From positions 7,311,246 to 7,375,245 of the forward strand of contig NC_087081.1 in NCBI RefSeq assembly GCF_026151205.1: a DNA stretch of 64,000 nt, read 5' to 3'. Made by a program: the position numbers and the translations under genes. Below the pieces are notes generated by a model. That model was not told the origin of the DNA. It made no database searches and was given only the letters and a program-made list of their open reading frames with translations. Shown piece by piece: positions 24,186 to 58,600 of this stretch. Origin of the DNA: Bolinopsis microptera (Eukaryota > Ctenophora > Tentaculata > Lobata > Bolinopsidae). Position 1 is the stretch's first letter, and every line of letters starts with the position of its first letter.

Positions 24186-27100
24186 CAGAGTGGGCCAGAG
24201 AAAACTGAACATTATAATTTCAGCTTTCAAAATACGTGTGTATATTCAGCTGGGGATGATGAGGTGAGGAGGTGATTCATTGGAACATCCACGACTCGGT
24301 TATGAGCCAAGAAGGGCCCAAAATGGAAGACAGTGACTTTGTCAACATCCTGACACAAAGCAGCGTCTTTTGCCTGCAAGAAACCAAACAGGAGTTTTTT
24401 CTCCCCAACTATGAGTGCTTCAACAGCACAAGAAAAGGCTCTCGATCGGGTGGAATTTGCATTGGGGTACATCGCTCAATTTCAAAACAAGTAAAGCTAG
24501 TCAAAACAAATTGCCCTGACTTCCAAGCTATTACTTTCTATCCCAATGATATGGAAAACAAGTTCACCATCATCAATGTCTACGACTCACCAGAGCAGTC
24601 GTCGTACAAGTCAAAACGCAAGGCTGGAGATGGCTCCCCTTACATGACAACATTAGAGCACCTCCTTGACTTTAAAGCTCAGAATCCCGATCTTGGCAAG
24701 ATCTTGCTGGTGGGTGACCTAAATGCCCGTACTGGAAACACAAACTTCGACTTTGAAGATGACGACCCTAACTCTGAACCAGATGAAATCCCCTCCAGCC
24801 ATCCAAAGACTAGCGGGAGAGTAAGCAAGGATCAAGTACTTAACTCTAGGGGTAACCTACTGTTAGATTTCCTCGCTTGTAATCGACTATCACTGCTAAA
24901 TGGTAATACACTGGGAGACATCTTTGGGGAATATACCTCTGTCAACTACAATGGTGCCAGCGTAGTTGACTATATGGCAGTCACACCTGAATTGTTGGAA
25001 TCAGTGCTGTCATTCCAAGTGCAGAATCTTAACAAATTTTCTGACCACAAGCCGTGCATCTGCAAAATAAAGCACAAACACAACTTGGTTGATGCAGAGG
25101 ATCTACTTGAAACACTAGAAGACGCACCTAAAAAATACAAATGGGATAATGAGGACGAGAAACTTCAATTTCAGTTTCATGCGATCCAGAACTCGCCAGA
25201 ATTTGTTCAGAAAATAACCCGAATCGCGGAAACCCAATGCACAGACAGAAAACAAGTTTTGTGTCTTAATGAAGAACTCGTATCTATCTTCCAAGACATT
25301 GCCGATGTTATTCTTCCGACAAAGGGTCCGAGGAACAAGCCAGATAGGAAAATAGTGAGCGGAAAAAGAAAAAGGAGACAAAGGATGAAGCCCAAAGCTC
25401 CGTGGTTTGATATAAGCTGTATAAACGGCAAGCGGGAGTTGAACAAACTGTCCAAAAGTTACGGCAAAAATCCTACGAATAAAAAACTCAGAGACTCTTA
25501 CTATGAAAGTCGACGATCATATCGGAAACTCATAAATCTTAAAAAGTCTGCATTCATAGAGGACCTATGTAGTGACATCGAACGAGGCAAAAATATTAAC
25601 TGGTCCCGTTTCAAGAGGCTTAAAGATATGAAGACAAATGGAAGCAAATTGGACGTCTTTGATATGCTTAACTTCAGCAAATTCTTCAAAGAGCTGTATA
25701 GTAAACCATCGATCAGCCCAAAAGAAAATAAAAGAACTACAAGACGAAATGGACAGAGATGCCACCCAGCAAACACTCACAGAAATCCTTGACCAAGACA
25801 TCAGCTCCGAAGAACTGTTGGCTTGTACTCGAGTGCTCAAGAAAGGGAAAGCAGTGTCGGAGGATTTAATCCCCAATGAATTTCTCAAACTCTCTGGAAA
25901 ACATATGCAGTGCGCTATACTGCATCTCTTTAACCTATGTTTATCACACAGAGTTTATCCCTGGGGAACATCTGTTGTGACGCCTCTGCACAAAAAAGGC
26001 AACATCTACGATCCCAACAACTATAGGGCAATTGCAGTAGCCAGCAACGTGGGAAAACTGTTTGCAAGTATTCTCCTCCAGAGACTTATAAAATTCCGTG
26101 CTGAGACAAACCCTGACACCCCCAATCAACTGGGGTTTTGCAAAAACGCGCAAACAGCAGATCATATATTGACACTGTCGACTTGCATAGAAAAATATGT
26201 AACAGCTAACAAAGGCAGATTGTTCTCCTGTTTTGTTGACTACGCCAAAGCGTTTGATACAGTCTGCCGGGAGGCACTCTTGTACAAACTCTGGAAACTA
26301 GGCATCAAAGGAAGATTCTTTGGTTGCATGGAGTTCATGTACACAAACTCCAAAGCAAAAATCAAGCTCTTGAACAAGCTCTCTGAAAAGATCGATGTTC
26401 TTTGCGGGACTGAACAAGGACACCCCATGTCTCCAGAACTCTTCAAATGCTTCATACACCAACTATCAGAAGACCTTAATTCTATGGAAAATGTCGAAGT
26501 ACCGTTACTGAAAAGTACTAGAGTAACCCACCTCCTCTGGGCCGATGACCTGATTCTGTTGGCTCTCGATCAAGAGAGTCTTCAAAGAATGTTAGAAGTT
26601 TTACACACCTACTGTCAAGAGTGGGGGTTATCGGTTAACATATCAAAAACAGCAATTATGGTGTTTAACCGGGCAGGACGGGTGCTCAAGGACAGTACTA
26701 ATTTTGTCTACGGGGAAATGACCTTGCCATCAGTGCGTGAGTACACATATCTTGGAATTACGTTCACACTCACGGGATCATTAAAACTTGCTCAGATAAA
26801 GCTTAGACAAAAAGGGCTCCGGAGCTACTTCTCTCTCAAGAGTATGCTTGACCTTCGATACCTCCGGAAGACAACTGTGTTTAAGCTTTTCGACACTCTG
26901 ATTGTTCCTGTTCTATCCTACGGGTGTCAGATCTGGCTTCCCATGACAAATTTCATGTCTATCTTTGCTTCGGGGAGTTATCCGGCTACTCAGGATACAG
27001 CAAAAGACCCCCTGGAGAAAGTTCACCTATCATTTATGAAATGGACTATGAATGTCAACAAATCGACTTCAAACACCGCTGTGTGGGGTGACACTGGAAG

Positions 27101-28101
27101 ATACCCGCTTGCCATCGAGCTTACGTCCCAAGTCTATAGCTACCTCGGGAGGTTGGAGGGACTGGACAAAGAGGGATGCTCTTCTTTAGTGAGGCACGCT
27201 TACGCCGAGCAGAGGGATCTGAAACTGTTATGTTTCTCCCGGCTGGAATCCACCAAGAACACAGTGAAAGAACTGACAGGAGGAAGTGATATTTCAAACC
27301 CGCACAAAATCAGCGAGGCTATGAAAACCCTTTTCGTTCAACAATGGAACAAAGAGCGAAAACTCAACAGAAAACTAGGATTCTACAACCTCATCAAGGC
27401 AAGCTTCGGTTGCGAAACATACCTGTCGATCAACTTACGGCCACAGCAGACTAGGAGACTTGCGCAACTCAGAACAAGCTCGCATCAATACAACATCGAA
27501 ACTGGAAGACACCGCATGCATCGACAAAAACTTTCGAATAGGGCATGCAAACACTGTTCTACTACAGATGTGGAGTCACTCGATCTTCTTCTAGAGCTTC
27601 CTTTCCCTGATCCAATCATCGAAGATGAACTTCATGTATTGCGTACTTGCCCTCTCTATGAAGATCTCCGCCACTGTTTGTCCCAACAAAGTAAAACATT
27701 ACTCTTCTCTGACATTGGACAGATCTTCGCACACCCTACAACCATCGGAGACCTAGGAAGGTTCCTTACCAAAGCTCATGAACGAAGATTCCCTAAAGCG
27801 TCCTCCAAACAAATTCCTAACATTAACAATATTGCCAAATTATAATCTATGACTCGGAACACTTTCAGAAAAGTTCATTTAAATTATTAAGTATTTTGAA
27901 TCTCACTCTTAAGATTTACGGGGTTCATTGTATATATATACTTTATGACTTTTGGGTAAATTTATTTTTTTATATCTGGTCAGACATTACCATTGTAATT
28001 TGACTTTTGAATCGTTTAATCCGTTTAATCCGTTTAATCCGTTTGCTCCGTTATCAAATAAGAGCACCATGAAAATGATCAGATTTCTCTGGCCAACCCT
28101 G
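24186..28101. mobile_element. 153-bp MITE, copy 2, split by a LINE
   Basis: The left part is 24186-24282 and the right part about 28045-28101. Joined, they match copies 1 and 3. The 3.8-kb LINE lies at the TTCATTG/CTCCG junction. Confidence 0.75.
24283..28044 (+). mobile_element. Nearly full-length non-LTR retrotransposon (LINE), one frameshift
   Basis: An APE-type endonuclease comes first: WNIHDSV near the start, CLQETK, VGDLNARTG, VVDYMAV and SDHKP, so the catalytic Glu, Asp/Asn and Ser-Asp-His are all present. A reverse transcriptase follows: FVDYAKAFDTV, GTEQGHPMSPELF, and WADDLILLA as the catalytic ADD box. Near the C-terminus is a Cys/His cluster (CKHCSTTD...ELHVLRTCPLYEDL). The two halves are in different frames. 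The shift falls in the A-rich stretch near 25717-25737, which is either a one-base indel or a frameshift site. The stop is near 27843. The 3' tail is about three CGTTTAATC repeats and not poly-A. The clade is uncertain. Confidence 0.88.
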
Positions 28102-32888: not shown

Positions 32889-35800
32889 CTAGTCCTCTTC
32901 GTGAAGGTCGTTGATATCCTGCATATGATCGGAATTAAGAAACACGTCCAGATAGCCCAAGTTCTCCTTCATGTGAGAAAGCTTCGTGGTTCGTGTTATT
33001 AATATTACTTCTCTCCTGATAAGATGTTCTTGTAAGTTTAAGGGGGTATACACCAAAATTGTCCAACCCAAATGGGATACACTCCACTTAACATCGTTAC
33101 AACAATATCATATTGTGCTGAATCTCTAAAAATACTGACGACTGAGGGTGAAAGTGAAAGTGAACTCACTGAGCAGCCCAATTGTAGAGAATGGCATGTT
33201 TGGAGGTATGGTATAGTTCCGACAAGTCGGTTATCAGAGGTTCTTCTAACACGGGGTTTATGGCTGCTCCTTCTTTGATGTAGTAGTCCCCTGAGATAGT
33301 ACATATGAGATAGTATTATAACCGTATAATACAATGAGATAGTAACCATGGTTACCGTATAATATCATGAGATAGTAACCATGATTACCGTATAATATCA
33401 TGAGATAGTAACCATGATTACCGTATAATATCATGAGATAGTAACCATGATTACCGTATAATATCATGAGATAGTAACCATGGTAACCGTATAATATCAT
33501 GAGATAGTACCTATGGTAACCGTATAATACCATGAGATAGTAACTATGGTTACCGTATAATATCATGAGATAGTAACCATGATTACCGTATAATATCATG
33601 AGATAGTAACCATGATTACCGTATAATATCATGAGATAGTAACCATGATTACCGTATAATATCATGAGATAGTAACCATGATTACCGTATAATATCATGA
33701 GATAGTAACCATGGTAACCGTATGATACCATGAGATAGTAACTATGGTTACCGTATAATATCATGAGATAGTAACCATGATTACCGTATAATATCATGAG
33801 ATAGTAACCATGATTATCGTATAATATCATGAGATAGTAACCATGGTTACCGTATAATATCATGAGATAGTAACCATGGTTACCGTATAATATCATGAGA
33901 TATTAACCATGGTAACCGTATAATACCATGAGATAGTAACTATGGTTACCGTATAATATCATGAGATAGTAACCATGATTACCGTATAATATCATGAAAT
34001 AGTAACCATGATTACCGTATAATATCATGAGATAGTAACCATGGTTACCGTATAATATCATGAGATAGTAACCATGGTTACCGTATAATATCATGAGATA
34101 GTAACCATGGTTACCGTATAATACCATGAGATAGTAACTATGGTTACCGTATAATATCATGAGATAGTAACCATGATTACCGTATAATATCATGAGATAG
34201 TAACCATGATTACCGTTTAATATCATGAGATAGTAACCATGATTACCGTATAATATCATGAGATAGTAACCATGGTTACCGTATAATATCATGAGATAGT
34301 AACCATGGTTACCGTATAATATCATGAGATAGTAACCATGGTTACCGTATAATATCATGAGATATTAACCATGGTTACTGTATAATATCATGAGATAGTA
34401 ACCATGGTTACCGTATAATATCATGAGATAGTAACCATGATTACCGTTTAATATCATGAGATAGTAACCATGATTACCGTATAATATCATGAGATAGTAA
34501 CCATGGTTACCGTATAATATCATGAGATAGTAACCATGGTTACCGTATAATATCATGAGATAGTAACCATGGTTACCGTATAATATCATGAGATAGTAAC
34601 CATGGTTACCGTATAATATCATGAGATAGTAACCATGGTTACTGTATAATATCATGAGATAGTAACCATGGTTACCGTATAATATCATGAGATAGTAACT
34701 ATGGTTACCGTATAATATCATGAGATAGTAACCATGATTACCGTATAATATCATGAGATAGTAACCATGGTTACCGTATAATATCATGAGATAGTAACCA
34801 TGGTTACCGTATAATATCATGAGATAGTAACCATGGTTACCGTATAATTTATAATGAGATAGTAACCTTGGTTACCGTTTAATATATCATGAGATGGTAA
34901 CCATGGTAACCTGGGTTACATAAATATTTAAAAGCATGCTAATTACCATTACATGAATTTGCTGTTTTAAAAAATCAAATTATCATCTGAAGAAATAAAA
35001 ACAGCTTTAACTTCTCAACATGAAATTCAAATCAAGTTTGCATTTATAATAAACATGAACGCTAAGCTATAAGATATTATACCTGATACTCCATAAGCCA
35101 TAAACAATATCTCATGTTCCAAGCAGAAGTTGTAGACATCTCTATCATGTTCGAAGGGGGTGAAGATATTCTGAACAATGCTGGGAGGAGTCAAAATTAG
35201 ACGAGGTAAATGCAGTCAATATTGGGATGCAGTGAAACTATATGCGATTAATCATTTTTACATCTATATTATATTTTGAACTTGACGAAATCTCCCCGGC
35301 AACGGGGACATAGAAACAAACTCAGAAAATTGGCCAAAAAGTGACCCCTTCGTTCTGAAAAATTTTAGCTCACAAATGGAGTTGAAACCTCGCGAGTTTT
35401 AGCAAGGTTTTAGAAAAATAAATCAATTATCAATTGATCATTAATTGATTAAGTAATTAACTATTAATCAATTAAGTAAACCCAACCTGATGGGAACAGA
35501 AGCAACAGATTGCACGTGCATAATATAAGTAATCTCAGTGTTGCTCAGTCCAATAGCTAGTACCTTTCCTGACAACACGAAACTTTCCATAGCTTTCCAA
35601 ACAACTGAAATAAAACTTTTAAAGTAAAGATAGCTGATACTAGGGCTGAACTGGGGCCCCTTGCAAAATTGTTAATTACTATCATTTAAGTAATCTGATG
35701 ATCATGCTGAAGTTTCGACCACCAAAAGCTCAGCAGCCAAGATGAAATCGTGCAACAAAAGATGACATTAATTTATGTTCTTAAATTTGATCCTTCGAAC

Positions 35801-38800
35801 AGCTGTTGAGCAATGAAACGCAAACATAATCTTAGCAATAATTTATGTTGGTATATTACAAAATGGGGCAGTTTTAAAGAAACACTTACCAGTTAGCTGC
35901 TCGAAATTAGGAATGTGATCTGTATTATGAAGGAGCAATATGTCAATGTACTCCAGATCCAATCTCTGTAAGGACCCTTCTATCAATGCAACCATTTCTT
36001 TGTGTAGATCAGCTTCCCCTGTATTTCTCCACTGAACACAAAACATTTGTAAATTTATATATTATATAAATTATGATTATAACACACATAACCCCGGCAA
36101 GCGCAGGGATTATATTTAAATTTTTCCCGCGACGCGCGGGAAAAATTCATAATAATTTCGAGTGCGAAGCACGAGGGATTATTATGAAAATAACCCCGAC
36201 GTGCTTTAGCACGAGGGGTTATTTTAATATAACTTAAGCGTGCCGGTGTTATGTGTTATAAACCCCTCCGGGTTAGTGCTAGGACCAGCAATTTGACATT
36301 TTACTCTTAATTCTAGCTATATGATTATGAGATCAGTATGGACAATATGAAATGGAATTGGGGACTACCAAATAAATACAACTAAGGACCTAAGGTACTA
36401 TGACATTTGAAATTGGCGTTATATCTAAACATTATTCCTCAGTCAGAACGTTGAATGAATATGAATATCGATAAGGGGCGTCGAGTTAAGCCTGGCAAGC
36501 GATAAAAGGTGGAGCTAATAATGATATCGTGTCATGAAGTCCATCAAAGTAGACGACTATATATAATATAATACATGGCTTATAACAAACACGACAAAAT
36601 TAATCGGACAAAATCAAATGTAACCGTCGAGACAAGTTCTGGAACTGGTCCAATTAATGTAAGAGTTTAAGTAATTTAAGCAGTGTGTTGGAGTTTTGCC
36701 AGCGCCTGCAGTTAGACCGATACGTAGATAAAGTGTATTAAATAGTTCTTACGTTAAGCCATAGGTCACGTGACATTTTTTACCAATGCGCGTCGTAGTA
36801 GTTAGTCACGTGATACACGTCATCAAAACACGTGACAGTGCGCGGTTGAAATTCTCATGTAATATCAAAACAGAACAAATCTAGTTGAGCCAAATAACCG
36901 GGGCGGGATTATAGAAGCTGTGCTGGGGTTATTTATTCAGCGGGAAAAAACTAACAGCGGGAGCCGGGATTATCAGAATCTATTTAGCGGGAGCCGGGAT
37001 TATCAGAATCTTATTCTGACCCGGAGGGGTTTATAATAAGACAAAATTTGAAATAAGTTTGATCATTTTAGCCCCTTGCTTATTATAGACACGTCAATTC
37101 ACTCACACTTGTGACTTTTTGTTTGTGTTTTACTTACCATTATTTTAGTGACAACTTTAACTGAACTTCTCATCCACTTACAATCTCTCACAGCTCTACC
37201 TAAAAACATTTAATTAAACAATCAATCAACTAATAAATCAATCGACCAAGTTGCTCCAAATATAATAGACACCATCTGAATAAAGCTAGCAAACGAACCT
37301 ATTTCTTCCTCGTTACCATACATAACAGCTGTGTCAATAAGCTTGTATCCCATATCTAGGGCTGCCCTTGTGTTCAAATACACGTTATCTATTGAACCCC
37401 CTGCAATGACAATTAACAAACCTTACGGTCACACATGTTATAAGATTTGAGCTTATTATCGTTAAAAACAGCTTGTCAAAATTTCAACTTTTCTAATTAT
37501 TGGTGATTTTGAGGTTTAAAATAAAACAACAAAGTAAACGATAAGATGTATCACTACATTACCAGGAAGCCCGGTCCCGAATGCAATTCCAGGTATGTAA
37601 GCAGTCTCACTGTTGTATTGTTTTATAGGGAACTTAGCAGGAGGGGGAACATCTGAATCTCTACTGTACTGCTCGGATTGTTCAGACACGTGGGCACGTA
37701 GTGAACCAGCACCTGGGGAGAGACAGGGGTTTAGGGGGACAGCACCTGAGGAAGACAGGGGTTTAGGGGGACAGCACCTGAGGAAGACAGGGGTTTAGGG
37801 GGGCAGGATCTGAGGGAGACAGGGGTTTAGGGGGACAGGACCTGAGGGAGACAGGGGTTTAGGGGGACAGGACCTGAGGGAGACAGGGGTTTAGGGGGAC
37901 AGGATCTGAGGGAGACAGGGGTTTAGGGGGACAGGACCTGAGGGAGACAGGGGTTTAGGGGGACAGGATCTGAGGGAGACAGGGGTTTAGGGGACAGGAT
38001 CTGAGGGAGACAGGGGTTTAGGGGGACAGGACCTGAGGGAGACAGGGGTTTAGGGGGACAGGATCTGAGGGAGACAGGGGTTTAGGGGGACAGGACCTGA
38101 GGGAGACAGGGGTTTAGGGGGACAGGATCTGAGGGAGACAGGGGTTTAGGGGGACAGGATCTGAGGGAGACAGGGGTTTAGGGGGACAGGACCTGAGGGA
38201 GACAGGGGTTTAGGGGGACAGGATCTGAGGGAGACAGGGGTTTAGGGGGACAGGATCTGAGGGAGACAGGGGTTTAGGGGGACAGGACCTGAGGGAGACA
38301 GGGGTTTAGGGGGACAGCACCTGAGGGAGACAGGGGTTTAGGGGGGCAGGATCTGAGGGAGACAGGGGTTTAGGGGGACAGGACCTGAGGGAGACAGGGG
38401 TTTAGGGGGACAGGACCTGAGGGAGACAGGGGTTTAGGGGGACAGGATCTGAGGGAGACAGGGGTTTAGGGGGACAGGACCTGAGGGAGACAGGGGTTTA
38501 GGGGGACAGGATCTGAGGGAGACAGGGGTTTAGGGGGACAGGATCTGAGGGAGACAGGGGTTTAGGGGGACAGGACCTGAGGGAGACCGGGGTTTAGGGG
38601 GACAGGATCTGAGGGAGACAGGGGTTTAGGGGGACAGGATCTGAGGGAGACAGGGGTTTAGGGGGACAGGACCTGAGGGAGACAGGGGTTTAGGGGGACA
38701 GGACCTGAGGGAGACAGGGGTTTAGGGGGACAGGACCTGAGGGAGACAGGGGTTTAGGGGGACAGGACCTGAGGGAGACAGGGGTTTAGGGGGACAGGAC

Positions 38801-41800
38801 CTGAGGGAGACAGGGGTTTGGGAGGGGTAATTTTTGTAAACAAATATTTCAGAAAGGGGCCAGAGAGTTAGGTCAAAGTATGGAGGTGAGAAAGTAAAGA
38901 GAGCGTTACACTAACCAAGGGGAGAGCACTCGGTAATATCACAAGGTTTAGGTCTAGACCCCACATGTTGCTGATACAGCGCCAAACTCCCCGAAATATT
39001 CCTCCTGTCTATCTCGAAGAAGCCAGCCTGTTCTAACAACATATTATAAGAGTCCAGGTAGAACCACATTCCTACTGCCATGTTCCTGCCGGGGGGACTG
39101 TACACGTGGTGGGGGTGGAGGAGTGGCACAAACAGGGTGTCTCCTGGAGGTATAACCATGGTTACTATCTCATCATATACGGTAAATATAGTGGCACAAA
39201 CAGGGTGTCTCCTGGAGGTATAACCATGGTTACTATCTCATCATATACGGTAAATATAGTGGCACAAACAGGGTGTCTCCTGGAGGTAACCATGGTTACT
39301 ATCTCATCATATACGGTAAATATAGTGGCACAAACAGGGTGTCTCCTGGAGGTATAACCATGGTTACTTTCTCATCATATACGGTAAATATAGTGGCACA
39401 AACAGGATGTCTCCTGGAGGTATAACCATGGTTACTATCTCATCATATGCGGTAAATATAGTGGTAAATTGTTCATGTTAGAATATTGTGAATCAATAGT
39501 ATCACGAAAATTTGTGTCAGCCTACATGATGATTGTTACTTAGTACAACCTGACTCTACCATGATAGCTCATTAATACATAAACATCTGTATATTTCAAT
39601 GCTTTTAACATCTGGGTAATGGCTGGGAAATATCTCCCCCGCATTCCACAGGATCTAAACTGCTAAATACCTGGTTCTACTATAGCACGTTTCCATGTAA
39701 CATTACAAAGTCCCGGGTGGTCTGCAATAGAGAAGTTAGTAACATTGAGGGGGGACAGGTTGGGGAAGTCTACCCATTGGTCCATCTGAAGTTGGAGAGA
39801 GGCGTCTGGTTCTGCTATTATCCACTGAATAGAACGTTGGAATGAGATGAAATGTACAGTGTACTGTATAGTGTTTGGGAGAGTGTAGGTGGTTGATTCA
39901 ACTGATAATTGCCCATTTTTATACCTTAAATTCTATGCGGTGAACGTAATAGAATCCGTGTGTTTAGCCCGAAGTATACCGCAATACACAGTTCATACCC
40001 ATTTATTATGAATTTTGTGGAGCCTTATCGTGGGTTTTAATTAGAAGACGGCGAAACCACCTAGTTTTGCCCCGTGTAAAACGATAAGTTGAATCGATGT
40101 TTTACTGAATGTAGAATTTGTAGATAATAGAAACAAGTTTTCCTGTATAAAAGATGGTAGGAAGTAAAACATAACGGACAAAGATAGTTGAACATTGTTA
40201 TTTACGCTTTGAAAATCAATAATTGAACGACTTGCACAGTTGCACGGTAACAAGCCGTTGACACGAACTTTGAAAGTTTGAATCCCATGCAATACGCGCG
40301 CATTAAATTTATCTACGATGTGATATTTTCTGCAGTTTTATGTCGCCGCCGATTCCGTTTATTTATTTGTAAATGCGGTCATATAGTTTCATGAATTATA
40401 CGTATCTTCTTCATGCGAGTACACTATTATACATTAGAGATTCAGTTCCTACATGAAATTTTACATGAAAATGTACTAAGTAATTTGCAAATCTCACCTC
40501 TTTAGTACCATCTAATACTGTCAGTAAGTTAGCAAATCCGTCAAAGTGAAGAGGGGAGTTAGTATTTCCCGAGCTCAGATAAAAGTTTTGATAAAAATCA
40601 TTTTCGTCTGTAAATTCGAATAGCCCAGTCAGATTCAGATAGCTAGGCACTGAAAATATGGGGTTAGGATAATAAAACAGCTTTATTTACGTGATTTAAT
40701 CTTGAATAATAGTAATAAAATAATAATTAAAGTTAATAAAATCATAATCCAAGTTTATAAAATAATTCCCTAAAGTTACAATGAAATGTGGTCATTAGAC
40801 ACATTACATTAGCCAGTAATTTAATTCAATAGAATTATACAGACAGAATGATCTGATCAATTGGCTCCAGATCTGTGCAGACTAAAATAATTCAAATATA
40901 TCACCAAAAGTGTATTACTCAACCCAAGGATACCTTACTAATCTGTACAGTTATAAATAACTTATCATTACTAACTTATACTGTTGTAAACTAAGATTCA
41001 AACTTATTACAGCTTATCTATCCTATTGTTAACTAAAGTACTAAGTACTAACCTATAAGCTCATCTAAGAATCTATCATCTGAAGTCATTGAGTCTAAAT
41101 ACCAGTCGTTATCTCTGAAATATATTGGATAAGAGTAAGTTGGCAGACTGCCAACAGTTGGCTACATTTGGCTACAGTTGCATTTCGTAGTTTTAGATTT
41201 TATGTTCCTTTGAATACTTTGGTTAAGCTATACACCTATAAAGTAATCATCTGAAAAAAACGACCAGAACGTAGGAACTACTTAGCTAAATAGCCAAAAA
41301 ACTATTCATACGTTTTAGTCTTTTACGTAGTCATTAATAAGTTAAAGGCTAATTGAACACATAACCCTTTAACTTAATAACTGATAAGTAAAAACCTTTG
41401 TACTTATATAGTCAGAAAGACGAACACCATGTCGCAATACCGACTCGAAGTTGCGTAACGAATGCCTATTGCCCAACATATTAAGATGCATTAAAACTAA
41501 CGGGCTGCGACGAATGGGAACTTGCCACTCCATGGCAATATAAATTATATTGGCTCTGTTACATCGCTTCGTGTTAATATAAAACTCTGTAATATGAACA
41601 TGTATGGGAGTTGGAGGTAGCATATTTTAAACCCTTCCACGGTGCAGAGCTCATACAGTGTAGTTTAGTAAACCGCCAGATTGAAAAGTATGCTCTCTAG
41701 CTCTCTGTATACTCTCTGTGAGCCAAGGACAAAAGAAAATCGCGAGTTAGTATAGTTAGACTAGAGAGCGATTAGAGAGATTAGAGAGCGATAGGCGTGC

Positions 41801-44800
41801 CAGTCAAAACAATAGCATTATATTTAAAAAATCTCGAATATATTATTGCTATAAAGTTATAAAACAGCATATCTTACGAGACATATTTAAATGGTACGAA
41901 AGTCGGTGGTTTTTCGAAAAAAAAACACTGTATTTTCGGACTACCAAAATTTAGGTCACTATCATTATTTTCTCCAAATTATTTTTCACGTATTTTCCTT
42001 AATGATGACTTTATCGATTTACTATCAACTTATCAATATAGCAAGTTATAAATATGATTCATCAAACAATTAATAAACACTAGTATTCGATCATGAATTG
42101 CTTTAAAAATGATTTTGGACACGTTCCATTAAAAATAAGCAAGCTCTGTCACTATTTTATTGGCCACGGCCAGGTAGGTAACATTATTATAAGCTATTAT
42201 ATCCAGGTAGATGCGAATCGATAAAACGGAGTACAACGGAGACTTACAGTCGTCTATTCTCAATCAGCTTGCCTTAAGGAATCTCTAATACAATCTTACA
42301 ATTCCAACAGCATGGGGTACGTACAAAATGTTATAAAACAAAAGTCCTCAGGAGACCGGTACTTTGTCTTTACCCTTAGCTTGTACTACAAGTTGCATCT
42401 TCAAGTTGTAGATGCAATACTGCGAGTGTGAGAGACTGTGACAAATTGTGATGTTAGCGGTTTTAGTGAATATTATTACTATTATTGTAGTTAATCCGGA
42501 CAATGGGTGTGGTTCTGATAACCACATTTAATATTCATAACAAATATTTGATAGTTTAAAAACATAATTGTCTGCTAGATGCGCTTGGAACTTTACATAT
42601 ACTTCAAATTTTGAGCGCAGAATAGATGAACATTTTGTCCGGTAATGTGTATTTGATGGGCTCAGAAAATCTTCATCTAAACATCTACCACATACCTCTA
42701 CACATACCTCTACACATACCTCTACACATACCTCTACACATACCTCTACACATACCTCTACACATACCTCTACACATACCTCTACAGTCTACACATACCT
42801 CTACAGTCTACACATACCTCTACACATACCTCTACACATACCTCTACACATACCTCTACACATACTTCTACACATACCTCTACACATACCTCTACACATA
42901 CCTCTACACATACTTCTACACATACTTCTACACATACCTCTACACATACCTCTACACATACCTCTACACATACCTCTACACATACTTCTACACACACCTC
43001 TACACATACCTCTACACATACCTCTACACATACCTCTACACATACCTCTACACATACCTCTACACATACTTCTACACATACTTCTACACATACCTCTACA
43101 GTCTACACATGGTTTTGGTTTTGGTTTTGGTTTAAAGAGCTTATACTTGCCACATATGTCCAGGGGCATTATAATAATGCAGGACTTCTAGGCAATGAGC
43201 TTGGTTGTGGGACACACTCAACTAGGGAAGTTGAGAGGCCTCCAATCAAGTCTCATTAAAGAGATATCAACAGAGTGTGAACCACTGCCAGACTTACCTT
43301 TGATTCGAGTTTGCCAGGCTCTATAAGTGTGGCAGAGAGTGTCTTCTTCGTCCTATCCTTTGTCCGTGATGCTGATAACAGACTCTTGTTGTATGTGGTG
43401 GTGACAAAAACTCATTTGCATGATTGGGTCTAGAGATGGGTCGATTGTGAAGTGTGCTATAAATAAGTAGTTGTGATAAATAGTACTGCTCAGTACCGTA
43501 ATTATAAAACCATAATCTGAGAACTTGTCTCAACATAGAAGATCTAAACTGGGTCGAAACTGGGTCTAAACAGTCTACACATACCTCTACACATACCTCA
43601 ATACCCCTGGCTTATTATAGTCCCCTTTACATTCCACTCAGCCTGCACATGCTCCTTTAAATTAAATTTGGTTCAAGTTTACATAATAGTAAAGATAATT
43701 ATCTCAGTCTAATTGCTGATCACGTGCCTAATTAAGATTCAATAGAAAGGTTTGTAACCATGTTACCAGTTACCTCGGAATTACCGCGTTAATTACACAC
43801 TTATTATCAGGTAGTGCGGGTGTACAGGTGCCTGTGTATACACAGGTGTATAGTGTAGTGTGTAGTGTGTATAGTGTAGTGTGTACTGTGTAGTGTGTAC
43901 TGTGTGTACACTACACAATGTACACACTACAGTTACACTACAGTGGGTGGTATTATAGAAACCACTGCCAATCCAACACCTGTAGAGTATTATAGTATTA
44001 GGAACCAAGGTGAGACTGCAGACTATCCTGGCAGCTGTTATAGACTGTAGATACAGGGCGAGATTATAAGAACAGTCTATTAGTCTATTGTAGGGACAGC
44101 AGTATTAAGAAACTATTCACGGTTAGATTGCAGATTGCAAAATAGACTGGCGGCTGTAGACTGTGTAGAGTGCAGAGTCAGGGCGATATGATAGGGACAC
44201 TGGACTGTCTGGTAACCATCATATAACCAATTTAAATTACCATTTAATTTAGATAGACTTGCAGCTGTAGAGCAAGAGTAAGAATGTAACATTACAGGAA
44301 CAGTATGGTTGCTGAATGCTGAGTTATATAATGTAATTTATTAATTATAATTATAATTTATTAGAATAAAAGGAATATATTGTTTTGATATCATTGTTAT
44401 ATTATTAAATTGAGCCTCAACTATTCTTTTGAAATATTATTATCTTAAACCCTAAAAACGTAGGTAGCTTGAATATTGCGCAGCTATGCAAAAAACTATA
44501 CACTACGCACAACCGTGAAACATTAATCCACACAACAGCTTAAAGTTCACACGACAACATGCTACGCTGAGGAGGGGGAGGCGTCAATTTAGTGTTTATA
44601 CATTTACCAGATCGAAGCTGAGGATTAAATTTGTATTGTAAGTGATGTTACAGTGATGTTACAATAGGGTAGCCTATCAGCTGTGTCGAGTTTGTATATT
44701 GTATGACTTTTCTCTTAACCTAAATGTTTGAGGAATGTTCGGCAGAATGTTTTCAGAAATCGTTTGACTTACTGTCATTAGCACCTAAGTTCTTTATAAG

Positions 44801-47800
44801 CATGATTCTAGGTCATACTATTAAAAAAAGGGCGCTTGCGGCAAATATTATCGCAGAAAGGTAGTAGGGCGGCTACTAGTAGGGCGGCTACTAGTAGGGC
44901 GGCTTCTAGTAGGGCGGCTACTAGTAGGGTAGTACTAGTAGTAGGGTAGATGTCAATTCACTTTTAGACCAGACACTCACGGTGTTATGAAATATGACAG
45001 AAAAAAAGTTCCGAATATTTTAAAATCAAGTACTGACGAATAGCTTAAATTTAAAAGAAATATTTTCCCTAAGAATTTTCCAGAATTCCTGTGGTGTGTA
45101 CTGTAAAATATAGTAAAGTTGTTCACTCATGCAGTGTGCAGTACGCAGTGGTGAAACATTCATTCTTAGGCTTTCTGTACCAGACACATACATACACCCC
45201 AACATTTCAATATGTCAATTTGTACTGAAAAAACCTCGGGTACTTGATGGTATTGCTAAATTGAAGAGGTATGGTTTAAAAAACGGAGTTTTATTGTTTC
45301 TCCCAATGAGTTGATATGTAGAGAAGAACTAGATAATATTTAATATAATAATAATTTAATATAATATATAATATATTATATATATCTAATATAATAACAT
45401 AATAATTTAATATAATATATCTAGTATAGTAACATAATAACATAATATTGTAACATTGTACCTTTTTACAGATCAGTGTGACACCCCAGACACCATACTA
45501 TTCCTGAGGGGCGAAGCAGCGAAGGGGGCAGCAAGGCTTCAAGCCTACGGCAGCCTCACTCTTGAAACTATCGCCCACAGGAAGGGAACTATCAAAAACC
45601 ACACCACAATCAACAAACAATTCATGGAGGATCTCAACATACCACCTAGAGCCACAAGAGACCTCACAGCACCAACCATGATGCTGGGACGGCACTTCAC
45701 CGTCACCACTCCTGGAACTAACAAAGCTGAATACAGAACCGCACTCCAACACACCATCGACAACATTACCAGTGAAACGATCACCTGCTACACAGACGGG
45801 TCTCTATCAGACTCCGGAAGTGGGGCTGGGTACATCATCACGACTGACAACAACAACACCACCCTGGAAGAGAGATCATTCAAGCTCCCTGATTATTGTA
45901 CTGTCTACCAGACAGAGCTCACTGCAATCATTGAAGCCTGCAAGTATCTCTCATCCTACAACAATTCACACATCATTATATGGTCTGATAGTCTCTCCTC
46001 CATACAAGCTATTTCCTCGCTTTCAACGAGGAGCAGAACTACTAGAGACTGTTATGACACCCTTAACGCACTCGGATCGAACAACACTCTAGAGATCCGA
46101 TGGATCGCAGCCCATATTGGGTTGTGGGGAAATGAAAAAGCGGATGAGCTGGCCAAGCTTGGCACGACCAGCGAACACGTTTTGAAATGCCCAATCCCTC
46201 AATCTTACATCAAACGACAAATCAACAACAAAGTCCACAGACTGAATCAGGATATCTGGTTAACGGATGGTCCTAGACACACCAAACTAACACTTGGCCA
46301 AAAGCACACCAAAATAATCAATAATATAAACACGTCACTCATCAACAATAGACAAGACTATAGAACCGCAGTCCACCTAATCACGGGCCACTGTGGCTTA
46401 AACAAACACCTCCACACCATCCGCAAATCAAGCACCAGTGCTTGTCCTATGTGCGGTGACGGAGAGGAAACTGTCTCACACTTTCTTGGACAGTGCCCAG
46501 CTATTGCCCAAATAAGAGGTCAATACTTTCGGGACTACTACCTCTCGGTCAACGACATATTCGACAACCACCACATTACCACAATCGTCAACTTCACAAA
46601 CCGCACCAAACGCTTAATAGTACCAGAAGAACTGGATCAGACTGGCGTAACTTAGCGCATTAACACATTACATATGCAGCCTTGCCTAACTGATTTATAA
46701 ACTCATCTGGTACCAAAGCGCGGTATTCCCATTCAGATCATTACCACCACCGTCCTCCACAATTCACACTGTTGTCTCCGATAAACCCCCCCTCATCCCA
46801 GAGGTAGGCAAAGCATCTTAATGCTATCCTCTAGTGGGCTTTCTATGCCCAGCCTCTCTTAAAAAAAAAAAAAAAAAAAAAAAAAAGATCAGTGTAACGA
46901 GTTAGTAGCATGGTTGGAGAACTTCTAACTCATTTGAGAATGTTCCAGAAACTAAAGTTAATCTCTGTTATTAGAGGGGGTCTAGAGGGTGTAGATTGGG
47001 AGATTATTAGATTAGAAGATTACACAATACGATGTGATACAATATATGATATATATTTCCAAGGAGATTTATATATTTATGAAGGAGTACGGGCTTGTTC
47101 CATGAGGCACCTGCGTTAAGCGTGTAACAAGATGTGAACTCAATAACTTCATTCTGCACAAGATATTAAGTTAAACATAGCTGTAAGTTTGAGACCACCG
47201 TTCCCTGCATCAGTGGTATAACGGAGCAATTTGCTGCACCACTCCTAAGAACTCAAACTGGCTGCATTGATGGAGGAATGACAGAGAGATCTCCTCTCTG
47301 TGGGGTGGTCACACGATGTGATGGCCCTGTTAAAGCTTAACGGATCTCAAAAACCCACAATTATGCTGGATAATTTGTCTACCGGCCATAATAAATTTTC
47401 AATTTTTAACGAATCTTATGTCCCTAATAATTCTCACTGCTTAACAGTCCGTAAATAATTTGTCGTAATAATTTGTCGTAATAATTTGTCGAGAATCCGA
47501 ATATTAATAAAGATTCGGACCGTTCTAGAACTACGATCAGGGTCCATCTATCTGATTTCATTTTGATTTATCCTATTAATAAAGTCGGTAGTTCGGCGAA
47601 TCAAAGAGGATGAGTTATTACATAATAAGTGGCCGGAGCCCTTGTAGAATTTATTAAAGTGGAGAGTAGCGATGGTTTAGGCTTTTCATTGTAGCAGGAA
47701 AAAGCACAAAATTAACTCAGTGAAATAATGTACGTACTAAATTTTAAGAAAGTTAGATTCTAAAACAAAAAGTTACAGTATTGAAAGTTAAATTCTCATG

Positions 47801-49718
47801 TCGATGTGTTTCATAGCCACGACTTATTTGTGCTATACAGTACAAATGTGCATAATGTGTGCATAATGTGTGCATAATGTGTGCATAATGTGTGCATAAT
47901 GTGTGCATAATGTGTACATAATGTGTGCATAATGTGTGCATAATGTGTGCATAATGTGTTCTCAATGCATGCTCAATCTAAGCATCTTGCACCCAAATTG
48001 ACTAAACTTGCAACAAATAGGGTGGGTAGAGGATGGGAACAAAGCTAGAACTGATGACTGAATTGTATAAATGCTAATTTATGCAATATATGTATAATTA
48101 TATTATATTTAATACTGCAATCCATTTAACAACACTCCTAAATGGTTTGGACGATGTTTTACTTGTATAGTATATAATAATATGTCTAATAGTATATATA
48201 ATATGTCTAATTGCTTCTTTACAATATTTGTGGTGACGTCAAACTGTAGATATTAGAAAAAAGGAAATGTTATTTAACTTCATCTGCATTTGTTTACAAG
48301 TATAAGACAGAAGCATCTAAGGAAATTGTACTGGAAATTTACCTAACCTACAATCATGCAGGAATCCTCCATTGTTCATTTCCACTAACCTGTAATTACG
48401 GAGGAATTTCCCAATGTTCATTTTCGTCCTGACTGGTTTGCTGGTTGAATGATGCTTGCGGAGGTCCACATAGAAGCTGAGGTCGAAGAGGTTACTCAGC
48501 AAATACTCGTCTGTCCAGTGAGTGTAGGCTGGCCAGTGTTTGGCTGCCCCTGGTTAGATATAGGGTTTGTAGCTTAAGGCGACAATTTAAGAGTGTAATT
48601 TAGAGTACATGTATTGTTTTCCGCCACAGGTAGGTTGGTCTGCACGGAGCCCCACAGTTTCAATTCATTGTTTAACTAACCGTACAGCAAGGATATCCGA
48701 TGTGTTCACAAGGTTAGGCACATGACCAACACTACCCTGCCAAAGTCAGCTGTTTACTATGGTTTTCTCGAAAGTATTTCCTTGTATTTGACTTTCGTCA
48801 AGAAAGTACTGTTACTTTCGGTTCAGATGTTATATATATATATTAAAGTCACTATTGTGACGGTACATTAGAACTAGACAGAAACAAAATGTGATGGGCC
48901 TCAGTTTCAGTTCCTTGTTTAACACTGCCGTATAGTATCCTGTTGTGATGTTTTGTAAACTATACCTTAGTTGTACTACTAAATCAGGTAATAACCCAGC
49001 ATAATCGGATGTACACGACAATATCTTGTCTAGAGGTATACAGGTGTCAAATGTCAATTGTCAATGATTTATACCAGAGTAAAGTTTATCCCAAGATAAG
49101 TTAAATGTTGTGACTAAAGTATACAAGTAATGAGTAATCCCCCACCTTTCATGAGAACAGGCTTAGCTTTCCAATAATAAGTGTTGAGAAAGTCATCTCT
49201 AGCAAGTTCCCCATCAACTGTAGTTATATCTTCCCTCACAAATTGATGCAGTTCTTTTAATGAGCTGAACTGTCCACTCATACATGCCTCTCTGTATGAT
49301 GGGAAGTTGTGCTGAAAAAGAGACATTGTACAGAAACAGCAAGCAAATAATTATCAAGAAACTTATGATTGGAGTATTCTATTTCTAGCATTGGACATGA
49401 TGAATATTGGCTGTAATTGTTTTCAATGCCATGATATATTTGATATTTGCAGTGTTATGACCGTATGTATCAACAAACCTGTACGTTCTGGTTAGCATAG
49501 AGAAGGTGAAGGATGATAAATGCCAACAAGGATGGGGCAATAGCTGTCAAAAGATACCAACTAAAATAAGACTGCGATTTGTCTTTGGGGCTCGGGGTAT
49601 CTTTTGTTTCAGCTTGCGGGTCATTTTTTTGTGTACCATTCACTTCATTTATCAGTTTGTCTTCTGAATTGTCTGAATTCTCGTTGTGTGGCTGATCATT
49701 CAACTCATCTTTTGTCAT
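32889..49718 (-). CDS. Membrane-anchored JmjC oxygenase fused to an aldo-keto reductase
   Basis: Fifteen exons, listed high to low: 49718-49479, 49311-49146, 48549-48390, 41114-41053, 40649-40498, 39824-39671, 39143-38916, 37712-37563, 37400-37299, 37199-37138, 36031-35890, 35604-35487, 35180-35083, 33245-33170 and 33015-32889. They total 2037 nt, or 678 aa plus stop, and phase agrees at all 14 junctions. Residues 1-50 are acidic and polar. Residues 53-73 form one membrane span, suggesting a type II protein with a lumenal body. Residues ~80-387 are a JmjC/cupin-8 domain: HFD at 244-246 and HPHHV with His near 323 are the iron ligands, and PGDTLFVP precedes the second. Six N-x-S/T sequons lie in this half. 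Residues ~415-678 are an aldo-keto reductase. The tetrad is Asp460, Tyr465, Lys490 and His527, in the blocks YKLIDTAVMYGNEEEIG, VVTKI and DILLLHN. The linking exon has no Met, so the AKR half needs upstream exons. Function is unknown. Both active sites look intact. Confidence 0.8.
33318..34915. repeat. 33-bp minisatellite in the AKR intron
   Basis: About 48 units of AGTAACCATGGTTACCGTATAATATCATGAGAT. The unit is 11 codons long, so the minus strand stays open over most of the array (MILYGNHGYYL repeats). It lies wholly inside the intron between exons 35083-35180 and 33170-33245. The palindrome GTAACCATGGTTAC recurs in every unit. Confidence 0.93.
35275..35415 (-). repeat. Interspersed repeat, copy 2
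   Basis: Reverse-complement relative of 3985-4135, sharing CCCCGGCAACGGGGACATAG and CAAATGGAGTTGAAACCTCG. It lies in an intron of the JmjC-AKR gene. Confidence 0.6.
36076..36290. mobile_element. Hairpin-rich fold-back repeat, left part
   Basis: Contains several short GC-rich hairpins (CCCGCGACGCGCGGG; CGAGTGCGAAGCACGAG; CGTGCTTTAGCACG) and ends with AACCCCTCCGGGTTAG. An inverted match to that end occurs at 37016-37036, so the two may be ends of one ~780-bp element. Confidence 0.55.
36943..37040. mobile_element. Fold-back repeat, right part
   Basis: A tandem AGCGGGAGCCGGGATTATCA, repeated twice, is followed by TGACCCGGAGGGGTTTATAA. The same family occurs at 20918-21018. The end TATTATAAACCCCTCCGGGT is the inverted counterpart of 36255-36274. 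Confidence 0.55.
37713..38820. repeat. 32-bp minisatellite made of 3' splice-site modules
   Basis: About 34 units of 32 bp; on the plus strand each reads GGACCTGAGGGAGACAGGGG followed by TTTAGGGGGACA. On the gene's strand each unit has CTAAAC (branch-point-like), a C/T-rich run and CAG|GT. The array abuts the real acceptor of the exon at 37563-37712. G runs on the plus strand could form G-quadruplexes. Confidence 0.92.
39118..39475. repeat. ~68-bp tandem repeat copying an exon start and its acceptor
   Basis: Five units, each with GGCACAAACAGGGTGTCTCC (the first bases of the exon at 38916-39143, reverse strand), the acceptor CTGGAGG and ~40 bp of intron. The intron part resembles the 33-bp minisatellite at 33318-34915 (ACCATGGTTACTATCTCAT). 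Confidence 0.88.
41870..41965 (+). mobile_element. Diverged fragment of the MFS-exon element
   Basis: Shares CTTAC(G)AGACAT at the start and GTATTTTCGGACTACCAAAA with the element at 11697-12278. Only one block is recognisable. Confidence 0.5.
42683..43108. repeat. 12-bp minisatellite TACACATACCTC
   Basis: About 35 units, with occasional TTCTAC variants and CTACAGTCTACACAT interruptions. It lies in the 7.3-kb intron between exons 48390-48549 and 41053-41114. A single further copy appears near 43570-43600. It is followed by (GGTTTT)n at 43111-43132. Confidence 0.93.
43800..43935. repeat. GTGTA-rich simple repeat
   Basis: Irregular TGTAGTGTGTATAGTG units next to the complementary-looking GTACACTACACAATGTACACACTACAG, which could fold back on itself. 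Confidence 0.6.
44857..44952. repeat. 15-bp tandem repeat GTAGGGCGGCTACTA
   Basis: About five units, the last degenerating into AGTAGTAGGGTAG. Confidence 0.85.
45480..46886 (+). mobile_element. 5'-truncated LINE with RNase H domain, poly-A and target duplication
   Basis: The open frame to 46655 ends a LINE polyprotein of the I/R1-like type. The RNase H domain is YTDGSLSDSGSGAGY (Asp), TELTAIIEAC (Glu), WSDSLSSIQAI (Asp) and GNEKADELA (Asp). A Cys-His cluster CPMCGDGEETVSHFLGQC follows. A 27-base poly-A (46860-46886) ends the element. GATCAGTGT flanks it at 45471-45479 and 46887-46895. It lies antisense in an intron of the JmjC-AKR gene, so it does not interrupt coding sequence. Confidence 0.92.
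47245..47350 (+). mobile_element. LINE 3' end fragment
   Basis: CTCCTCTCTGTGGGGTGGTC and GATGGCC match the 3' end of the LINE at 57650-58790 (TTCTCTCTGGGGTGGTCAGC). Only the tail is present. Confidence 0.5.
47848..47962. repeat. 11-bp minisatellite GTGCATAATGT
   Basis: About eleven near-perfect units in an intron of the JmjC-AKR gene. The minus-strand frame reading THYAHIM repeats is an artefact. Confidence 0.9.
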
Positions 49719-55629: not shown

Positions 55630-58600
55630 ATGGATGTTATTCACTTCTTGTTGCTGGTTGCAACTATAGCAGCCCTCAGGATTCTCCTATTTTTTATCGC
55701 CAGAGTTCCCAAACCCTTGAATGACTTAGTGTGTGTTATCACTGGGGGAGCTGGGGAAATTGGCCAAATTGTAAGTTTTATTGAAAATATAAAAAACATT
55801 AAAATAATCAGTCTGCATACAAGATGTTTGAGTTTGACACTGACATGGAATTAAGTAAATTATACAATTAAGTAAATTATACAATTATGTAAATTATACA
55901 ATTATGTAAATTATACAATTATGACTATTGACTGTAACATTTATAGAAAGTTTGCTACATCTGGCTACATTAAAGGTTGAAGGTTGTTGAATGAGTAGTG
56001 TTAATTGTGCACAGTTAATGATTTATTGTGTAGCTTAGGTAATATGTACATTGTATAATGTAGGGAGCTGTATAATTAAGGTCCTATATATAAATATATA
56101 CAGTCTATAGTCGGTGGAAGGTAATATATGTTAAATAATGTGTACACAAATAGGGTGAATTTATCCTTGATCTTATTGTTTATGGGCCTTATTGACAAAT
56201 ATTATTATTAACTAGCAGGAAATGTTATTATTAATAATTTTGATACAGCTTTTTACAGCTTTTAGCAGCACGTTCACGAAATACAGTCACAACATGAAAT
56301 CCGCAGTTTAATAACGATATAACCATGCGCCATGTCAAAATACCTTAAATACCTTAAATACCTTAAATTAAGCTGTCTCCTAAGATGCGATCCTATTGTG
56401 TTACAAACATTTCACCAGGTGACGAGTATTTTGCTAGAGAAGGGAGTGAGGATGGTGATTTGGGATAACAATGAATCCAACATTGAGAGAATGAAACAGA
56501 GGATGTCTTCTGATATGATTTATTATTTGTGAGTAGTGTGACACGTATAATATGAGTATTTCAGACATGCATATACTTGAACAGATAAAATATGTTAAAT
56601 TGTTCAAATGTATTCGCATCATAAAAGTTTCAGAATTAGATCAAGTTACCGCTGTTCTAGTAAATCAGAAACCGTAACAATTAACCAAAGTAATGACCTA
56701 CAGTAATAATTGAATAGTTGCTGCAACACTACATGTAACTAAATAACCTGTCTGACAATGGCCAATGCACAGTAATAAAGTCTAAAGAAATTGTTTGCAG
56801 CAAAGTTGACGTTTCCAACAGTAGTGAGGTTGAAAAAGCAACTGAAGAAGTAGTGGACCAGTTAGGAGGGGTAGATATCCTTATCAATAACGCAGGTAAA
56901 GAACTTGGAGTCATTTCTGATAGTTACATTCTTGTTTTAAATATTGCATTTTTATTAAAAATAAAAAATTGCACTGGTGTGATCTCATTCAGAACTACAG
57001 AGCGGCTCAGATAAAACTTATTATTGTGAATTACTCACCATTTCCATATTTTAAGTCTGATTCTCACATTCTCTGAATTATTTTGTACGTTATAAAAATA
57101 GTTTTTTAGAGTTTGTTTTTGGTCTAAATGAGTTCCAATATGCTTGAAAGTTACAAACATAGTCTGATTGTGTCTAGAGTGTACCCAGAGTTTACCATTA
57201 CACCGTAGAAAACTTCAATAATAGGTTTGTGATGGAGGAGTACTTGTTTGAAAATCACATCAGCGGCGTAAATCGAGCTTTTCCTGTGCTCAGAGGTTCT
57301 TGTATTCACTCTGATGTGAAATAAGCGAGTCTGTAACAACAAATATTAAATCAAACGTAGAATTATGTTAAGTTTAGGGGTTGAGTAAACCCGAAACCCA
57401 AACTTCGTGATTTTACTACATTTTGCGCAGTTTCTGGTACGTTTTTGGGCCTATAATTCATAGATTTAATCATCCTGGACTACCAAAGCTAAGCTAAAGG
57501 TTATATTCATTTGGTTTTTACGGTTAAAAATTATTCTGGGAGTTTTGATGAGGTAAAAACCATCTTGTAAAAAATCGCAAAAAATGCGAATCATGCAAAT
57601 CGCTCGGCTTCGGCTCAAAATTCAACTTGAGTTTTTTGTTTCGCAACTTGAGTTTTTTGTTTCGCAAAATGTCTATCATTGCTCTTATTATGAGTGGTGT
57701 CCCCCAAGGAACAGTTTTAGGTCCCATACTGTTTTTAATATTCATTAATGACATTGCTAGCTGCGTGTTGCATTCAACGTTAAGATGTTTCGCTGACGAC
57801 ACAAGAATTTGCAGATCCATCAGTGATTCACATAATGTTACTGAGCTTCAGTCTGATCTTGACAAAGTCACTGAGTGGTCATCAAGAAACAACATGGCAC
57901 TACATGAGGATAAGTTTGAGTACATATGCCATCTTGCCAACAAACGTAATCCTCTCTATGAGCTTCCTTTTGTCCATGAACAGTTCCAATACAGAACATC
58001 AACTGGTACTATACTCAGTCCTGTGGATCAGCTCCGTGATCTCGGTATAACAGTATCCAGTGATACGTCCTGGACATCACACATACGATCTAGTTGTGAT
58101 AAAGCGAGGAAGATGGCAGCATGGGTATTCAGTGTCTTCCACTCTCGCAATACTGGTGTTATGTTAACACTATACAAGTCACTAGTCCGTAGCCACTTAG
58201 AGTATTGCTCTCCTCTGTGGAATCCGGCGAAAGTGTATGAAATTCAGGAGCTTGAAAGTGTACAAAGAACTTTCACTTCAAAGATCCATGGTTTACAGCA
58301 TCTCCATTATTGGGATCGCCTAAAAACCCTGTCCCTCATGTCACTTCAGAGGCGCAGAGAACGTTACATTGTCATGCACATGTGGAAAATCCTACATGGT
58401 TTCACATTCAACGACCTTGAAGTACAGTTCACAGTAAATCCACGATTGGGTACCCTTGCTAAGGTTCCAGCTGTCCGTACAAAAAGCTCAGCTGCTCACC
58501 AGACTCTATATGAAACATCATTTGGTGTAATGGGTCCCAGACTCTGGAACTGTATACCTTCGCACATACGTGCAGTCTCCAAACATGATGGCTTCAAGCA

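Follow-up and report, generated by a model that had tools for sequence, protein, structure and literature searches.

JmjC enzymes use Fe(II), 2-oxoglutarate (2OG), and O2, and aldo-keto reductases (AKRs) reduce carbonyls. Does a comb jelly gene encode both enzyme types in one membrane-anchored protein, or do the two halves belong to separate genes or messages? The question is raised by the minus strand of a 64,000-nucleotide stretch of the Bolinopsis microptera genome (contig NC_087081.1, positions 7,311,246 to 7,375,245; hereafter, the window), for which an earlier sequence-only reading had proposed such a fusion. The answer that we consider likely is a single gene, the product of which would be a bifunctional type II membrane protein with a JmjC and an AKR domain. 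The frame, splice sites, domains, catalytic residues, and hydrophobic span of this gene are observed, and we infer its transcript, the topology and activities of its product, the coupling of the two halves, and the history of the fusion.

Gene model and coding frame

The coding span of the JmjC-AKR gene (32889–49718, minus strand, as are all its parts) is an open frame that begins with an ATG at 49718 and closes with a stop ending at 32889. Its 15 exons have AG/GT borders and agreeing phases at their junctions and, when joined, form a frame of 2082 nt including the stop, which encodes 693 amino acids and contains no internal stops. The 15 phase-matched minus-strand exons of the sequence-only reading could be located, and the joined frame measures 2082 nt, not the 2037 nt given there. 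A sixteenth exon, 49029–48966, was dropped because joining exon 2 directly to the exon that starts at 48549 yields MKGAAKHWPAYTHWTDEYL, which lies within the Cupin_8 match; the frame is broken when 49029–48966 is included.

Exon 1 (49479–49718) encodes an acidic N-terminal tail and a single membrane span, as read from the spliced frame and its hydropathy. According to the spliced frame and Pfam, the Cupin_8/JmjC domain starts in exons 2 and 3 (49311–49146 and 48549–48390, together spanning 48390–49311). The rest of the domain, with H244, D246, K259, and H323, and a tail past the Cupin_8 match occupy exons 4–7 (41114–41053, 40649–40498, 39824–39671, and 39143–38916, spanning 38916–41114), as placed by the spliced frame, Pfam, and alignment. 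The joining exon, exon 8 (37563–37712), consists of a Met-free linker followed by the first AKR strand, IPGIAFGTG, and is delimited by the spliced frame, AKR alignments, and the coding score. Exons 9–15 (37400–37299, 37199–37138, 36031–35890, 35604–35487, 35180–35083, 33290–33170, and 33015–32889, spanning 32889–37400) encode the remainder of the AKR domain with D460, Y465, K490, and H527, on the basis of the spliced frame, Pfam, and alignments.

Pfam places Cupin_8 (PF13621) at residues 121–340 (E 7.8e-24, 85.4 bits against a cut-off of 27.4) and Aldo_ket_red (PF00248) at residues 448–689 (E 8.8e-38, 130.5 bits against a cut-off of 24). A leave-one-out coding score, for which the introns of the gene itself serve as background, is positive in all 23 successive 29-codon windows with a minimum of 1.8, the final 26 residues lying outside these windows. 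On the strength of both Pfam E-values and the uniformly positive windows, the coding frame exceeds chance. One spliced frame carries a membrane span, a JmjC oxygenase domain, and an AKR domain, as had been claimed, with Pfam matches and catalytic residues in both enzyme halves; that the two domains lie in one protein is well supported by the sequence of this one genome.

The two enzyme halves and the membrane span

JMJD5/KDM8 is the top match of the first half among solved structures (E 2.3e-14; 22 distinct sequences at E <= 0.001, a list that does not include JMJD8). In the single alignment shown, JMJD5 has counterparts to H244, D246, H323, N250, and K259. We take H244, D246, and H323 to be the iron ligand positions and K259 and N250 to be 2OG contacts. 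The JmjC motifs picked out by the earlier reading, HFD (244), PGDTLFVP (311), and HPHHV (321), are all present. A match to JmjC_2 (E 0.0017, 18.3 bits) stays under its cut-off of 22, and NCBIfam profiles assign no family to this half. JMJD5 and the JmjC-AKR protein have in common the JmjC domain, the iron ligands, the 2OG lysine, and an aligned Asn. They differ at the N-terminus, where the JmjC-AKR protein has a hydrophobic span; to our knowledge, JMJD5 has neither a membrane span nor an AKR half.

JMJD8 is reported to be located in the ER lumen and is described as a JmjC-domain-only protein with a signal peptide and no reductase (PMC5684140). A JmjC domain in the secretory pathway would thus be common to JMJD8 and the JmjC-AKR protein, for which this location is predicted. 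The JmjC-AKR protein differs from it by its reductase half.

The sole strong hydrophobic span lies at approximately residues 52–76, with a 19-residue Kyte-Doolittle peak of 2.14 at residues 55–56; the next separate peak reaches 1.24, in agreement with the single span foreseen. This hydropathy profile suggests that residues ~52–76 are an anchor. The JmjC part carries six N-glycosylation sequons, where 2.45 are expected from composition, the AKR part none (1.72 expected), and the N-terminal tail one (1.2 expected). The span and the six sequons fit a secretory type II protein with a lumen-facing JmjC part. The AKR part is placed in the lumen solely because no second span follows.

The closest solved structures to the AKR half are MGS-M4, prostaglandin F synthase, and aldehyde reductases (best E 6.6e-27), judged from the best 60 of 200 distinct sequences at E <= 0.001. 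Several of the matches listed extend back to residue 34–40 of the second half, i.e., into exon 8. The full Asp-Tyr-Lys-His tetrad that had been called is there as D460, Y465, K490, and H527. It is fully aligned in two of the four AKR alignments shown (MGS-M4 and prostaglandin F synthase), and Lys is displaced from the tetrad position in the other two. Homology to AKRs of the prostaglandin F synthase, 2,5-diketogluconate reductase, and aldehyde reductase type begins near the first strand and reaches the C-terminal region, and the catalytic residues are common to both. The best NCBIfam models, DkgA and DkgB, score far under their cut-offs (100 of 425 and 93.7 of 327 bits, respectively). In AKRs, Lys-Ser/Thr … Arg is presumably the site that binds the NADPH 2′-phosphate. 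At the corresponding segment here, RTTKLSHMKEN, the Lys and Arg of all four relatives shown are replaced by Arg and His, a change that may affect which cofactor is preferred. The AKRs that we know of are stand-alone, cytosolic enzymes, and we know of no lumenal AKR; this AKR half, in contrast, is preceded by an anchor and a JmjC domain.

In the reading that we favor, a short acidic tail would remain in the cytosol, a single span would serve as an anchor within the secretory pathway, and the remainder would reside in the ER/Golgi lumen. The lumenal portion would begin with a JMJD5/JMJD8-like JmjC domain dependent on Fe(II), 2OG, and O2, most likely a protein hydroxylase, and continue, after a linker of ~30 residues, with an NADPH-type AKR acting on carbonyls. 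Features that count against a lumenal bifunctional protein include (i) the lack of sequons in the AKR part, (ii) the location of one sequon, out of seven in total, in the tail assigned to the cytosol, and (iii) the His that stands in for Arg at the presumed 2′-phosphate site. The likeliest reason for retention of the fusion would be a lumenal substrate or an oxidative load common to both enzymes. That the JmjC half passes an oxidized product directly to the AKR half is conceivable but rather doubtful, and any chemical coupling of the two halves is speculation.

The joint between the halves

The halves are separated by intron 7 (37713–38915, minus strand), which is 1203 nt long with only ~96 nt of non-repeat sequence. 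It is filled by a tandem array (37707–38819, minus strand) in which a 32-bp unit recurs ~35 times, every copy resembling a 3′ splice site with its pyrimidine-rich sequence and AG. Searching the 264.65-Mb genome for exact copies of a 29-nt core of the unit yields 28, each of them in this array; with exact matches as the measure, the array probably grew in place. Given the ~96 nt of non-repeat sequence and one unit, intron 7 probably measured ~100–130 nt before the repeat expanded, which leaves little room for the end of one gene and the start of another. No ATG, AATAAA, ATTAAA, TATAAA, or TATAA occurs on the coding strand within its 1203 nt, partly because the repeat fills the intron. The fusion would have originated as AKR gene exons joined the frame of a secretory JmjC gene across this formerly short intron.

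With exon borders marked by a slash, the intron 7 donor TTG/GTTAGT scores 8.8 and the acceptor CTCTCCCCAG/G scores 7.8, ranking sixth and joint fourth of 14 under a leave-one-out matrix trained only on the other 13 introns of the same gene. Exon 8 lacks Met and its phase fits, as the sequence-only reading stated, and the first in-frame Met after the joint is found in exon 9, past the first AKR strand. When read in the AKR frame, the 29 codons of exon 8 that precede the AKR homology have a coding score of 11.0, versus −7.6 and −27.0 in the other two frames, low values that are mostly due to one and three stops, respectively, at −8 each. The 62 overlapping windows without stops that were taken from three introns all stay under 11.0, and 294 known-coding windows have a mean of 8.8 (SD 3.5); for these comparisons, the linker was outside the training set, the coding windows were inside it, and the introns also supplied the background. 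The score of the linker relative to the intron windows indicates that coding sequence reaches the acceptor.

These observations bear on four other accounts of the locus. The halves could be two close but separate genes, with the JmjC gene ending at the TAG at 38911–38913 (minus strand) and the AKR gene having a promoter and first exon of its own. This TAG, part of the donor site G/GTTAGT and one codon past exon 7, is indeed the first in-frame stop, and a search of introns 5–7 yields two candidate AKR first exons, 40172–40061 (37 codons) and 39562–39550 (4 codons), which are open, in the right phase, and have donor scores of at least 4. These candidates, in introns 5 and 6, are weak. Set against them are the lack of ATG, polyadenylation, and TATAA signals in intron 7, a gap of merely ~100–130 nt once the repeat is removed, the coding-like character of exon 8 up to its acceptor, and the position of the first in-frame Met beyond the first AKR strand, all of which make separate genes unlikely. 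An operon-like pair, in which one primary transcript is made and the AKR message is freed when a spliced leader is trans-spliced to the exon 8 acceptor, would suit a gap of ~100 nt. The ctenophore Hormiphora makes common use of spliced leaders, according to PMC8527503, which gives the Hormiphora leader as free of ATG and both the Hormiphora and Mnemiopsis leaders as ending in TGAG. A leader of this kind would leave exon 8 still without a start codon, and the gap holds no polyadenylation signal. The end of the Hormiphora leader is not clearly enriched in the B. microptera genome (376 matches with up to three mismatches versus 321 for the reversed control), so leader use in this species is itself unproven. 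An operon-like arrangement is very unlikely. The location of the joint inside a long tandem array could also point to two genes misassembled within a repeat. However, phase and splice sites fit across the joint, and with all 28 exact copies of the core located here, no second array of exact copies is known that could have mediated a false join, rendering an artifact extremely improbable.

The remaining account is compatible with a single fusion gene and adds a second product: a JmjC-only protein, arising from retention of intron 7 or from splicing to an AG further upstream in the array, next to the fusion made from one of the last two AGs. Because the TAG lies one codon past exon 7, unspliced RNA could yield a JmjC-only protein of 388 residues. 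Thirty-five AGs of the array, chosen by pattern, were tried as acceptors; with 33 of them, a stop follows within 4–36 residues. The other two maintain the AKR frame: an exon start at 37712 gives 693 amino acids, and one at 37745, 33 nt upstream, gives 704. On the other hand, mRNAs spliced to the upstream AGs might be decayed. A gene with two products may be entertained tentatively, at less than even chances. A more elaborate proposal, that of a lumenal two-step enzyme in which the JmjC half introduces an aldehyde or ketone into a secreted or membrane substrate, the AKR half reduces it to an alcohol, and the ~35-unit array of 3′-splice-site-like repeats sets the ratio of fused to JmjC-only product, would be distinctly unlikely.

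Two other introns of the gene hold tandem repeats. A 68-bp repeat of ~5 copies at 39122–39464 carries the 3′ splice site and the first 22 nt of exon 7, generating several near-identical exon 7 starts in series. Intron 13 contains ~48 copies of a 33-bp unit (33321–34911), the core of which is, by eye, common to the 68-bp repeat of intron 6.

Relatives and significance of the pairing

The fusion protein returns 22 matches in the B. microptera genome at E <= 1, of which 15 are its own exons and seven lie elsewhere. Each of the seven corresponds to one half: C9 (34%) and C3 (27%) on the AKR side, C2 (30%) and C3 (25%) on the JmjC side, and three weaker matches with E 0.004–0.28. No second locus with both halves is found among the 22. 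Genome-wide family lists, comprising 18 AKR matches (one in the JmjC-AKR gene) and 10 Cupin_8 matches (none in the gene), contain no other adjoining AKR/Cupin_8 pair; the Cupin_8 list missed the JmjC half of the gene itself and is therefore a weak control, from which exon-split pairs elsewhere may escape. Viral contigs searched with the whole fusion give no match within the close relatives that such a search reaches. Prokaryote genomes, searched with the AKR half only, give 49 stretches at 39 loci, with 27–35% across most of the half or 44–67% in shorter pieces. In the B. microptera genome, a COX1 search gives no match and a homeodomain scan gives 111; zf-C4 returns none, a result that does not prove absence, and ctenophores are not known to have nuclear-receptor zinc fingers.

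The single-exon JmjC gene of B. microptera at C2:9287836 is 30% identical to the JmjC half over residues 108–327. It has, by eye, a signal-like N-terminus, from which it follows that secretory-type JmjC genes are present in this genome. Its frame stops right after the JmjC domain (LNAW stop), whereas the JmjC-AKR gene continues into the AKR half. Several Cupin_8 (JmjC) matches, including this single-exon secretory-type gene, cluster at C2:9274791–9328150. AKR exon matches cluster at C3:19195789–19209673 and perhaps represent tandem multi-exon AKR genes.

The literature searched on the combination of JmjC and AKR, on the domain architecture, and on JmjC proteins in ctenophores, a scope that leaves most subscription papers and domain-architecture databases outside, returned no enzyme that combines the two, in line with the earlier reading, to which no described enzyme of this layout was known. 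An annotated but undescribed JmjC-AKR fusion may exist. The protein is probably a genuine new pairing of two known enzyme families. If the mRNA exists, a 2OG oxygenase and a carbonyl reductase are paired, in a manner absent from the literature searched, in comb jellies, which branch close to the base of the animal tree. The favored topology, if true, would make this AKR a lumenal enzyme of the secretory pathway and provide a naturally occurring way to ask if JmjC products undergo further reduction. The tandem 3′-splice-site array between the halves offers a ready case for the effects of repeat expansion on the splicing of a fusion gene.

Elsewhere in the window, retroelement pieces with RNase H, endonuclease, and reverse transcriptase frames occur on the plus strand at 24263–27842, 45441–46652, and 57552–58733, as identified among 10 scanned frames of the 92 listed; the piece at 45441–46652 sits in intron 3 of the JmjC-AKR gene. 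A minus-strand frame at 15292–16275 matches Laminin_G_3 (3.9e-10) and, more weakly and under the cut-off, pentraxin, and is probably part of another gene.
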